From the NCBI RefSeq assembly GCF_036226405.1, contig NZ_CP108464.1, positions 1,054,001 to 1,118,000 of the forward strand: a stretch of 64,000 nt of DNA, given 5' to 3'. The translations under genes were made by a program, and so were the position numbers. A model generated the notes under the pieces. The model was given only the letters and a program-made list of their open reading frames with translations, was not told where the DNA came from and ran no database searches. Positions within the stretch are counted from its first letter, which is position 1, and every line of letters starts with the position of its first letter. This stretch comes from Streptomyces sp. NBC_01260 (GTDB lineage Bacteria > Actinomycetota > Actinomycetes > Streptomycetales > Streptomycetaceae). Positions 60,025 through 63,526 of the stretch are shown here, one piece after another.

Positions 60025-60420
60025 GCCCAGTAGTCCGCCGTCGGCATAACGTGACGCGCTTCCAATGGTCGTGGCCGCTTACCTGACCGGCGTAGTCGTC
60101 AGACGAACTTACCGAAACGTCCTGGTTGACCGCGTCGGGTGCGAGAAGTCGGCCGCCGGGGCGGTGGCACAACCGGCCGTGATCGTGGACGACGACTTGC
60201 GGGCGCCGATCGGACCACAGCCGGCCCGGCGGCCGGAGAGGACGCCGGTCCGGGCCACGACGACCACGTGCAGCCACCCGTCGGCCGCGGCATGCCCGTC
60301 AGCCACCCGCTCCACGCCCCCGCTCCGCCATACCGAGAAGAGCCAGGTCACCCCGTACGACCTGATCCGTCACACCAGCCCCAGCGAGGTGACGCCGCGT
60401 CAAAGCGGCGAGGGCCCACG
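60025..60420. other. Gene-free region upstream of the peptide cluster
   Basis: About 400 bases in which all frames are short and compositionally shadow-like. I see no gene. It includes the promoter side of the secreted repeat protein gene. Confidence 0.45.
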
Positions 60421-60442
60421 CGAAACGTTAGCGAAACGTTAG
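60421..60442 (+). promoter_or_regulatory. Tandem 11-bp repeat with AACGTT cores
   Basis: CGAAACGTTAG occurs twice back to back, so two AACGTT palindromes lie exactly 11 bases apart, on one face of the helix, ~117 bases before the peptide start. A GTTAGGAGG follows. A hairpin CCCCC-GGT-GGGGG (60476-60488) lies further down the leader. Likely operator and leader of the RiPP-like operon. Confidence 0.5.
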
Positions 60443-60559
60443 GAGGACGTAAGCGTCAGCTGAAATGGTGCTGATCCCCCGGTGGGGGAAGACAGCCTCT
60501 TTCGATTATGGCACGGGCGCGATTCCGGTCTCGCCCGTAATCCAGGAAATGGAGTAGTC

Positions 60560-60643
60560 ATGAAGAAGATCAAGGCACTTGTGAGGAAGTTCAAGAAGGA
60601 CGAGGACCTCGCCAACCACGCGTGGGTTCTGCACGTCATCTAA
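60560..60643 (+). CDS. Candidate RiPP precursor peptide (27 residues)
   Basis: ATG with GGAG five bases ahead, a strong site. The peptide starts with a Lys/Arg-rich helix (MKKIKALVRKFKK), continues DEDLANH and ends in the hydrophobic/aromatic AWVLHVI before TAA. The size, basic leader, acidic hinge and aromatic C-terminal core are those of precursors processed by cytochrome P450s, especially atropopeptide-type ones; Trp and His in the core are possible crosslink sites. The next gene downstream is a P450, then a JmjC-type oxygenase. Too short for standard gene finders. Its role as precursor is inference. Confidence 0.75.
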   Translation: MKKIKALVRKFKKDEDLANHAWVLHVI

Positions 60644-60864
60644 TTCACCTTTCGTTGGCGGGGGGAAGCGACCATGTCGTTTCCCCCCGCCAACGCTTGG
60701 GTGTATCTCCGGTTTTCGCGGTCCGTGGCGGCCGAGACCGTATCAGGTCCTGCCGCAGGCCGGGCCGCGGCACAACGCACGGTCCCGCCCGCTCAATGTC
60801 TGGAATTCTCCGCCCGCCGCGGGGAACCCATTTAATTGCCATTTTCAATGGAGGCGCGATTCTC

Positions 60865-61920
60865 GTGGAAGAAGCGGCACCGGCGGAAGTTCGCGGCCAT
60901 TCCATCGTGTACGCCCCGCGGATTCAGGACCTGCTGGCCAGGGAAGAGAAAGTGTTCCGGATCGACGCGACCACGGTCGGCGTCTCCGACTGCGACCTGA
61001 TGGCCGAAGTCGTCGCGGCGCGCCCTGTCCTGTCAACGGAGCGCTCGGTCTACAAGCCCGCGGCGGGAGTCGAGATTCCCCATGACAGCGCGACACGGAC
61101 GATCCGTGCTCTGGGGCAGGACGTCATGGAGGGCATCCGCACTCCGCCGCCCCCGGCGCGAGGGCTGAACGGCGCCTGGCCCTACGCGGCCACCTCCTAC
61201 CTGCGCCAGTGGCTCTTCGCGTCCGACCCCCTGCCGGTCTCCCTGTTGTCGAAACGTCGCGTCACGCGCTCCCACACGCTCTCTCGGATCGTCGACCGTG
61301 CCATCACCGTCTGGCCGGAGCACGGAGGCGGGCACGAGCGCACCGCGCTGGCCGAGCAGATCCGCAGCGCTTCCGACACCCAAGAGCGCAGGCAGGCCAT
61401 CGCCATGTACCGGCGAGCGACAGCCACCCTCTGCGACGGCGTGGCCGCACTGGCCGGCAACGCACTGTGGCTCCTGGGGCCGGCGCGGGAACAAGAGGAA
61501 GCCCGCGGCGACCTCACTGCCGTTCTGTGGGAGACGCTGCGGCTGCTCCCGCCCGCGTGGATGCTGTACCGGACGGGCGGGGAGGCGTACACCGGACTGC
61601 ACCCCGAGATCCGCCCCGAGGACAACGTCGCGCTCTTCCCCCTCTTGATGCATCGTCACCCGGGTTACTGGTCCGATCCGATGGAGTTCCGGCCCGAGCG
61701 GTGGGCCGGGGTGGCGGATCCCGAGAAGACGCCCGCGTTCATGCCGTTCGGGTTCGACGGTGCCCGCTGCTGGGCCAAGCACCTGGTTGTACCCCTGGCC
61801 GAACGCCTGCTGACCGTCGCTTTCGACAACCGGCTCGTCATTCGCGGCCTGCAGCAGGAGACCCACGTCCCCCTGCGCTCCCTGCTCTCCGTGCGGTTCG
61901 ACGCGGAAACCGGGGCATGA
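60865..61920 (+). CDS. Divergent cytochrome P450, likely peptide-modifying
   Basis: 351 residues from GTG at 60865 (GGAGG ten bases ahead; ATG at 60796 possible). K-helix E223-T-L-R226 and a heme loop PFGFDGARCWAKH with Cys302. The loop differs from the usual FxxGxxxC: Asp stands where the conserved Gly is. The I-helix region (TLCDGVAALAGNALWLL) lacks the common (A/G)Gx(D/E)T acid-alcohol pair. Both fit P450s that couple aromatic residues in peptides rather than hydroxylate. The ~222-base gap after the peptide leaves room for a weak terminator, and the stop overlaps a small ORF. Confidence 0.85.
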   Translation: MEEAAPAEVRGHSIVYAPRIQDLLAREEKVFRIDATTVGVSDCDLMAEVVAARPVLSTERSVYKPAAGVEIPHDSATRTIRALGQDVMEGIRTPPPPARGLNGAWPYAATSYLRQWLFASDPLPVSLLSKRRVTRSHTLSRIVDRAITVWPEHGGGHERTALAEQIRSASDTQERRQAIAMYRRATATLCDGVAALAGNALWLLGPAREQEEARGDLTAVLWETLRLLPPAWMLYRTGGEAYTGLHPEIRPEDNVALFPLLMHRHPGYWSDPMEFRPERWAGVADPEKTPAFMPFGFDGARCWAKHLVVPLAERLLTVAFDNRLVIRGLQQETHVPLRSLLSVRFDAETGA

Positions 61921-62076: not shown

Positions 62077-63084
62077 ATGGAATCGCCCACGCTGGCCGAC
62101 TGGGTCGGCGACGTCAAGAGTTTCACCAGCCACCAGTGGCAGCGCGAGCCCGCGGTCTTCACGCCGCAGACACTCGCCTCGCCGTTCGACCTCGACGAGT
62201 TGGACGCCGCCTTCGACTCAGGGCTGCTGCGCACGCCCTACCTGGAGATGGTCCGCTCCAACAAGGTCACCGTCCCGGCCGATGCGTACACCACGTCCCG
62301 CGTGGTGAACGGCACAACGCACCACGGCTTCGCCGACCGCGCGAAGGTCGTCGCACTCCTGCGCGCCGGGGCGACGCTGCTGCTGCGACATGTCGACCAG
62401 TGGCACCGCCCCACGGGCGACCTGGTGACGCGGCTGTCCGGGGAACTCGACCGGCGCGTGGAGGCGTTCTTCTTCGTCACACCCGCTGACGGTCAGGGCC
62501 TCGCAATACACCGTGACGACGCCGACGTGTTCGCCCTCCAAGTGGCCGGACGCAAGACCTGGTACGTCCACGGCGCGCCGACGACGGCGGACTGGTCGTT
62601 GGGCGAGCTGCCGGACGACGAGCACTCGCCCCAACTCCTGCACAGCGTCCTCGAGCCCGGCAACGTGCTCTATATCCCGCGGGGCTTCGCCCACCGCGCG
62701 GTGGGCGAAGCCGGACTCTCCGCCCACCTGTCGCTGACGATCCGCGACCTCTCCCTGCAGGACCTGCGGACAGCCCTGGAACGGTGCTTGACCGATGGGC
62801 TGGACGTCCCTGCGCGCCCGCTGGGGGAAGCCGCGATCGCAGACGCCTGCGCCACACTGCTCAGCCATGTCCGGGCGAAGCTCGCCACGGTCGAACCAGG
62901 GGACCTGCGACTCGCCGCGCGGGCAGCACAGGCACGGCAACAGGTCCAGGCGACACGGGCGGAGACATTCGCCGGGACGGCCCGGGACTGGGAGGCCGGC
63001 GCACTCGGCGCCAAGCGCGCCGGACTGGCGTCCGTCGTACGCACATGGCGCAGACTGCGCGACGCGGCACGCACCGCGGACTGA
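62077..63084 (+). CDS. JmjC/cupin-type 2-oxoglutarate Fe(II) oxygenase (RoxA-like)
   Basis: 335 residues from ATG at 62077. The double-stranded beta-helix core has H145-R-D147 (HxD) in LAIHRDDADVFALQVAGRKT, and the distal His206 in YIPRGFAHRAV, completing the iron triad; LSLTIRDL follows. The C-terminal ~110 residues are helical, as in the winged-helix end of RoxA/MINA-type enzymes, which hydroxylate His or Arg of proteins. Next to a His-containing peptide core, hydroxylation of the peptide is a reasonable guess. Confidence 0.85.
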   Translation: MESPTLADWVGDVKSFTSHQWQREPAVFTPQTLASPFDLDELDAAFDSGLLRTPYLEMVRSNKVTVPADAYTTSRVVNGTTHHGFADRAKVVALLRAGATLLLRHVDQWHRPTGDLVTRLSGELDRRVEAFFFVTPADGQGLAIHRDDADVFALQVAGRKTWYVHGAPTTADWSLGELPDDEHSPQLLHSVLEPGNVLYIPRGFAHRAVGEAGLSAHLSLTIRDLSLQDLRTALERCLTDGLDVPARPLGEAAIADACATLLSHVRAKLATVEPGDLRLAARAAQARQQVQATRAETFAGTARDWEAGALGAKRAGLASVVRTWRRLRDAARTAD

Positions 63085-63430: not shown

Positions 63431-63526
63431 CGTCCTCAGCCGATGCCCCCGCCGAATCGCGCCGCCGGCACCTTGGACCGATCACCTTTTGACCTCAACC
63501 GCGCTTGAGCCAGCACCGTGGTTCAC

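Follow-up and report, generated by a model that had tools for sequence, protein, structure and literature searches.

The 27-residue open reading frame (ORF) at positions 60560-60643 of the window (the whole stretch of DNA analysed here, 64,000 nucleotides long) opens a three-gene RiPP cassette—a precursor gene, a cytochrome P450 gene and a gene for a JmjC-type oxygenase. The cassette is marked by the genes themselves, by their conservation, by a core identical to that of Streptomyces roseoverticillatus and by the metal- and cofactor-binding residues of the JmjC protein. Very probably, it encodes a pathway of the roseovertin (cyptide) type, with precursor, P450 and a predicted Trp-His crosslink. 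Judged from these sequences, the ORF is thus a real precursor gene whose probable product can be named and whose crosslinking chemistry is known. The interest that remains lies in the conserved JmjC gene, which suggests that the natural product is modified further. The features of the locus are as follows.

60550..60554, + strand: Shine-Dalgarno-like TGGAG of the precursor gene (read from the sequence; an AATGGAG-like block runs across 20 aligned upstream regions)
60560..60643, + strand: predicted RiPP precursor gene, 27 aa, MKKIKALVRKFKKDEDLANHAWVLHVI (counterpart in 20/20 named loci)
60620..60640, + strand: predicted core AWVLHVI, with Trp22 as i and His25 as i+3 (identical to the S. roseoverticillatus core, L033; SroB pattern of Trp i/His i+3)
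60653..60695, + strand: 20-bp hairpin between the precursor and P450 genes (fold -48.6 kcal/mol, z -8.2; covariation)
60865..61920, + strand: cytochrome P450, 351 aa, GTG start, predicted crosslinking enzyme and probable SroB orthologue (PF00067, 6.1e-13)
62077..63084, + strand: JmjC_2 (PF08007) Fe(II)/2-oxoglutarate oxygenase, 335 aa, predicted peptide hydroxylase (PF08007, 1.9e-19)

Conservation of the precursor gene

The gene reads as the initial annotation had described it, with its 27 residues, ribosome site, leader, DEDLANH hinge and AWVLHVI core. An ATG, 27 codons and a TAA make up the ORF, TGGAG (60550-60554) stands five bases before the ATG, and the product, MKKIKALVRKFKKDEDLANHAWVLHVI, has its core Trp at i and a His at i+3 (W22-V-L-H25). 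No Pfam family matched this product at E 0.01, and the one NCBIfam match, to NusA, was weak (E 0.048) and far below the cut-off. The same annotation had placed the gene directly ahead of a P450 and an oxygenase. That order holds, with the amendment that the P450 starts 221 bases 3' of the precursor gene, beyond a strong hairpin, and that the oxygenase is a JmjC protein of PF08007.

A pattern scan of one genome per species (84,980 species), which detects only P450s carrying one of two short patterns, yielded 20 distinct named loci in Streptomyces, Kitasatospora, Streptacidiphilus, Actinacidiphila and, once, Streptosporangium. A 27-residue ATG ORF with a related leader and a W-x-x-H core lies 5' of the P450 in all 20, and a 27-aa precursor likewise precedes the close P450 in 19/19 loci from 297 family genomes, the window's own included. 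Precursors are also present at L115-L118; these repeat the precursors of L031, L033, L035 and L036 letter for letter and probably represent the same species again, and the three locus sets (named loci, family sample and L115-L118) overlap. Because 27-codon counterparts of similar leader and core recur at 20/20 and 19/19 loci, the ORF at 60560-60643 is, on sequence grounds, a real RiPP precursor gene and not a chance ORF. The proposal of a P450-crosslinked RiPP precursor, in which Trp and His would be joined, staked in the initial annotation on conservation of the small ORF beside homologous P450 genes, is borne out by its presence next to the P450 in both sets.

Among the 20 named loci, the core is AWVLHVI in 14, AWILHVI in three, and SWILHVI, SWIAHVI and AWPLHVI in one each; one family-sample locus (L013) has AWENHLI. 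Trp and a His three residues later are kept in every core of the named loci and family sample, and the cores end in Val-Ile or Leu-Ile. The core Trp and His are constant across the 20 named loci while the leader varies, and pairwise differences between the 20 precursor genes number 713/428/781 at codon positions 1, 2 and 3, with the minimum at position 2. About 120 bases 5' of the precursor gene, at 60420-60441, we also noted a direct repeat, GCGAAACGTTA GCGAAACGTTA, that is not conserved as such; a GGTTAGGGTCC-like block sits near this position in many relatives.

The P450 and its relation to roseovertin

The ExxR motif of the P450 is invariant and the heme-Cys motif largely conserved among 20 aligned relatives. 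Its family is sharply bounded: within the best 120 of 186 database matches, 85 are at least 61% identical, followed by a drop to 41%. A close P450 (≥76% identity) occurs in 19/297 family genomes, where the next full-length match is at 42%; in 5/392 genus genomes at E≤1e-90, the window's genome and a conspecific one among them; and, among 394 genomes of the class sample at E≤1e-75, in the window's own genome alone. These searches, like the matching JmjC search of the family genomes, scored 5 to 7 candidates per genome, so that counts of weaker relatives are minimum values.

According to the reviews of this field, SroB (WP_157848581.1) links C7 of Trp(i) to N-tau of His(i+3) through a C-N bond and also places a hydroxyl on Trp C6 (PMC11002830); roseovertin, which carries a Trp C7'-His N-tau link, was made in E. 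coli from precursor and P450 (PMC12299652); and SroB is the roseovertin P450 (PMC12352619). For roseovertin/SroA-SroB (cyptides), these reviews cite Nam et al. 2023, JACS 145:22047. P450-made Trp-His crosslinking is therefore chemistry already known and published in 2023.

The genome of S. roseoverticillatus NRRL B-3500 (L033) ties the window to this product. Its precursor, MKMVKAFVKRFKKDEDLANHAWVLHVI, has the core AWVLHVI, identical to that of the window, and a single P450 in that genome matches the window P450 at E≤1e-5 (25/25 candidates scored), with 86-87% identity. We examined the upstream regions of 30 of its 32 other Pfam P450s for ORFs of ≤60 aa with a Shine-Dalgarno sequence and both Trp and His in the last 12 residues, and found none; the same scan recovers the true S. 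roseoverticillatus precursor and 18/20 known precursors overall. When the Shine-Dalgarno demand was dropped, short ORFs that hold Trp and His close to the C-terminus turned up at 8/30 P450s; none is leader-like, and the one at L068 happens to contain WxxH. From the species name, the core and the crosslink spacing, we infer that this P450 is SroB and that Sro stands for S. roseoverticillatus. Since the sole family P450 of S. roseoverticillatus lies beside the same AWVLHVI core, with its Trp(i)-His(i+3) spacing, we assign the window to the roseovertin pathway with high confidence. The suggestion in the initial annotation that a Trp-His crosslink would be new consequently falls, given the SroB/roseovertin link described in the reviews and the AWVLHVI core of S. 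roseoverticillatus.

Separation from atropopeptides and biarylitides

Atropopeptides (tryptorubin, amyxirubin and scabrirubin) are defined in the literature by a KSLK-type leader motif and a WxxW/WxxY core (PMC11450843, PMC12352619). The window shares with them a homologous P450, a short precursor, a conserved core Trp and the precursor-P450 nucleus in the same gene order, and the full-length P450 matches of the sister clade are 36-42% identical to the window P450—features in keeping with a true member of the tryptorubin family bearing an unusual core. That reading is nevertheless very improbable, as it contradicts the published definition: a KSLK-type motif occurs in 0/20 and a WxxW or WxxY core in 0/20 named-locus precursors, which have WxxH instead, whereas 10/11 sister loci combine an SLK motif (8 KSLK, 2 QSLK) with a WxxW core; the ATG scan found no precursor at the remaining one, L029. 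Moreover, the two P450 groups separate at 100/100 support in a maximum-likelihood tree of 45 rows, in which 21 and 11 rows were labelled for the two groups and L029 was left out. Atropopeptide membership is thus rejected on leader motif, core and P450 clade. Biarylitides are likewise rejected, their precursors being five residues long (PMC13417212) against the 27 aa found here.

The same genome carries, outside the window, a second locus (L053; G000:C1:1386316-1387320) in which MKFLFQLKEKMTPEKSLKAYAWYLWY lies 5' of a P450 that is ~39% identical to the window's. With its core AWYLWY, L053 is a canonical atropopeptide locus, and the genome therefore holds one locus of the roseovertin type and one atropopeptide locus. 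Around L053 and L020-L030, flanks of 1.5 kb yielded no JmjC match.

The conserved JmjC oxygenase gene

The JmjC gene begins 156 bases past the P450 stop and lies 3' of the P450 in 20/20 named loci. Close copies (≥72% identity) occur in exactly those 19/297 family genomes that have a close P450, and coordinates place the two genes next to each other in 19/19. P450 and JmjC distances correlate as well (Spearman 0.81, 190 pairs), which shared descent would also explain. Because roseovertin was reportedly obtained in E. coli from precursor and P450 (PMC12299652), the JmjC protein is not needed for the crosslink; given a third, strictly linked oxygenase gene at the locus, roseovertin as described may be an intermediate.

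An alternative is that the product is the published roseovertin and that the JmjC protein has another task, for instance with a ribosomal protein or some other host molecule as its substrate. The sufficiency of precursor and P450 in E. coli speaks for this, as do the ribosomal oxygenases among PF08007 proteins and the JmjC relatives of ≤51% identity in at least 67 further family-sample genomes that have no close P450. Against it stand the restriction of close copies to the 19 close-P450 genomes, always adjoining, their presence in 20/20 named loci, and BipG and PbsQ, JmjC/cupin enzymes described as proven RiPP tailoring hydroxylases of the biphenomycin pathway (PMC12707348, PMC12257519). We consider such a separate task improbable and judge that the JmjC protein probably hydroxylates the precursor peptide.

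In the JmjC protein, the residues H145, D147 and H206 (the HxD...H metal triad) and K160 (the 2-oxoglutarate Lys) align to NO66 and are invariant in 38/38 sequences—the window's own plus 37 selected from the best 120 of 279 matches. Among proteins of solved structure, the JmjC protein is most closely related to the histidyl hydroxylase NO66. In the same alignment, Tyr328 and Ser421 of NO66, which hold the target His, correspond to Phe133 (38/38) and Thr221 (38/38). Among other relatives, MINA53 does not rank clearly above the arginine hydroxylase YcfD (1.1e-11 vs 3.5e-11; 18.1-24.2 vs 19.7-20.3). A histidine target for the JmjC protein, made attractive at first by the likeness to NO66, seems doubtful in view of these changed target-holding residues and this ranking, and we lowered our estimate for it slightly. 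The leader His20 is an unlikely target on sequence grounds, since it is not invariant, being replaced by Asn in L048 and L049 and by Tyr in L013. NO66-type histidyl hydroxylases have a C-terminal winged-helix domain; the model of the window protein has a mean pLDDT of ~38-55 per block from residue 291 onward.

More distant PF08007 relatives, ~50% identical, were seen in other Streptomycetaceae (L105, L107, L108, L109 and L111), beside what we take, among the neighbours listed, to be LanC-like genes (L109, L111) and genes with acyl-adenylating motifs (L105, L107, L108). In G144, G140, G185, G257 and other genomes, two relatives of the window's JmjC gene stand side by side; an in-frame TGA interrupts several of these matches, perhaps only because the match runs past the gene end.

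The intergenic hairpin and the wider locus

A strong hairpin occupies the same place in 19/20 loci; it is absent from L035, which has a repetitive stretch instead. Both-side changes were found at 10/14 consensus pairs, and 89.6% of cells are paired—far above slid controls. Against single-base shuffles, the 19 loci give z-scores between -6.6 and only -1.8, a modest range owed to the very high GC content of the region, and covariation is therefore the better evidence. The hairpin is probably a stabiliser of the precursor message or an attenuator that reduces read-through towards the P450 and JmjC genes. We also considered an ordinary intrinsic terminator 3' of the precursor gene, a reading weakened by the lack of a T run after most hairpin copies, as judged by eye.

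A covarying hairpin immediately 3' of the ORF in 19/20 loci would also suit a small ORF whose product regulates the P450 operon as a leader peptide (attenuator). The ORF does not, however, contain the single-amino-acid run that a sensing leader needs, its core Trp and His stay fixed while the leader varies, and its core pattern has been published for the substrate of a P450 of this kind (PMC11002830), which together make regulation by this peptide exceedingly improbable compared with its role as a RiPP precursor.

Beyond the P450 and JmjC genes, we found no wider conserved cluster among ORFs of ≥90 aa in flanks of up to 6 kb (some shorter) at the 20 loci: P450/JmjC clusters and their shadow frames alone reach 20/20, and other clusters at most 12. 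In the loci searched, the SnoaL-like gene at 63518 had zero matches and the DUF7507 protein upstream a single one, in L031. A large gene ~4-7 kb 3' of the P450 in L034, L037, L043 and L047, presumably resembling a class II lanthipeptide synthetase, probably belongs to a separate cluster.

Proposed pathway

By analogy with the published enzyme, the 27-aa precursor would bind the P450 through its basic leader and so present its C-terminal core. The P450 of the window strain would then join Trp22 C7 to His25 N-tau and hydroxylate Trp C6, as SroB does. Before or after this step, the JmjC protein would hydroxylate a core residue with Fe(II) and 2-oxoglutarate, and a host protease would free the core. 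Tentatively, and with slightly less than even confidence, we propose that the natural product is a further hydroxylated roseovertin, in which the JmjC protein acts on the Trp-His macrocycle—in the boldest form, at the His beta-carbon. If true, this would establish a RiPP class built by two oxygenases (P450 and JmjC) and a bacterial small-molecule counterpart of human NO66; at stake is whether JmjC enzymes akin to the ribosomal oxygenases serve as tailors of aromatic peptide macrocycles. Among the papers listed by our literature search, none links a JmjC enzyme to a Trp-His peptide crosslinked by a P450; the primary roseovertin paper lay outside that search, and an earlier mention is possible.

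Comparison with known systems

The window resembles roseovertin/SroA-SroB in its Trp(i)-His(i+3) core and in a small precursor adjoining a P450, and differs from the S. roseoverticillatus locus in strain and leader. The JmjC gene is present in both the window and S. roseoverticillatus, yet goes without mention in the roseovertin passages of the reviews. Compared with the ribosomal histidyl hydroxylases NO66 and MINA53 (~460 aa), the JmjC protein is shorter, at 335 aa, and the precursor has NHAW rather than NHXH. A functional parallel is offered by BipG and PbsQ: as described for these JmjC/cupin enzymes, a hydroxylase (predicted in our case) works on a RiPP precursor in which an aromatic crosslink is formed as well, a biaryl in the BipG/PbsQ peptide. 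BipG and PbsQ hydroxylate ornithine, however, and their crosslink is made by a B12 radical SAM enzyme, whereas the window core contains neither Arg nor Orn.
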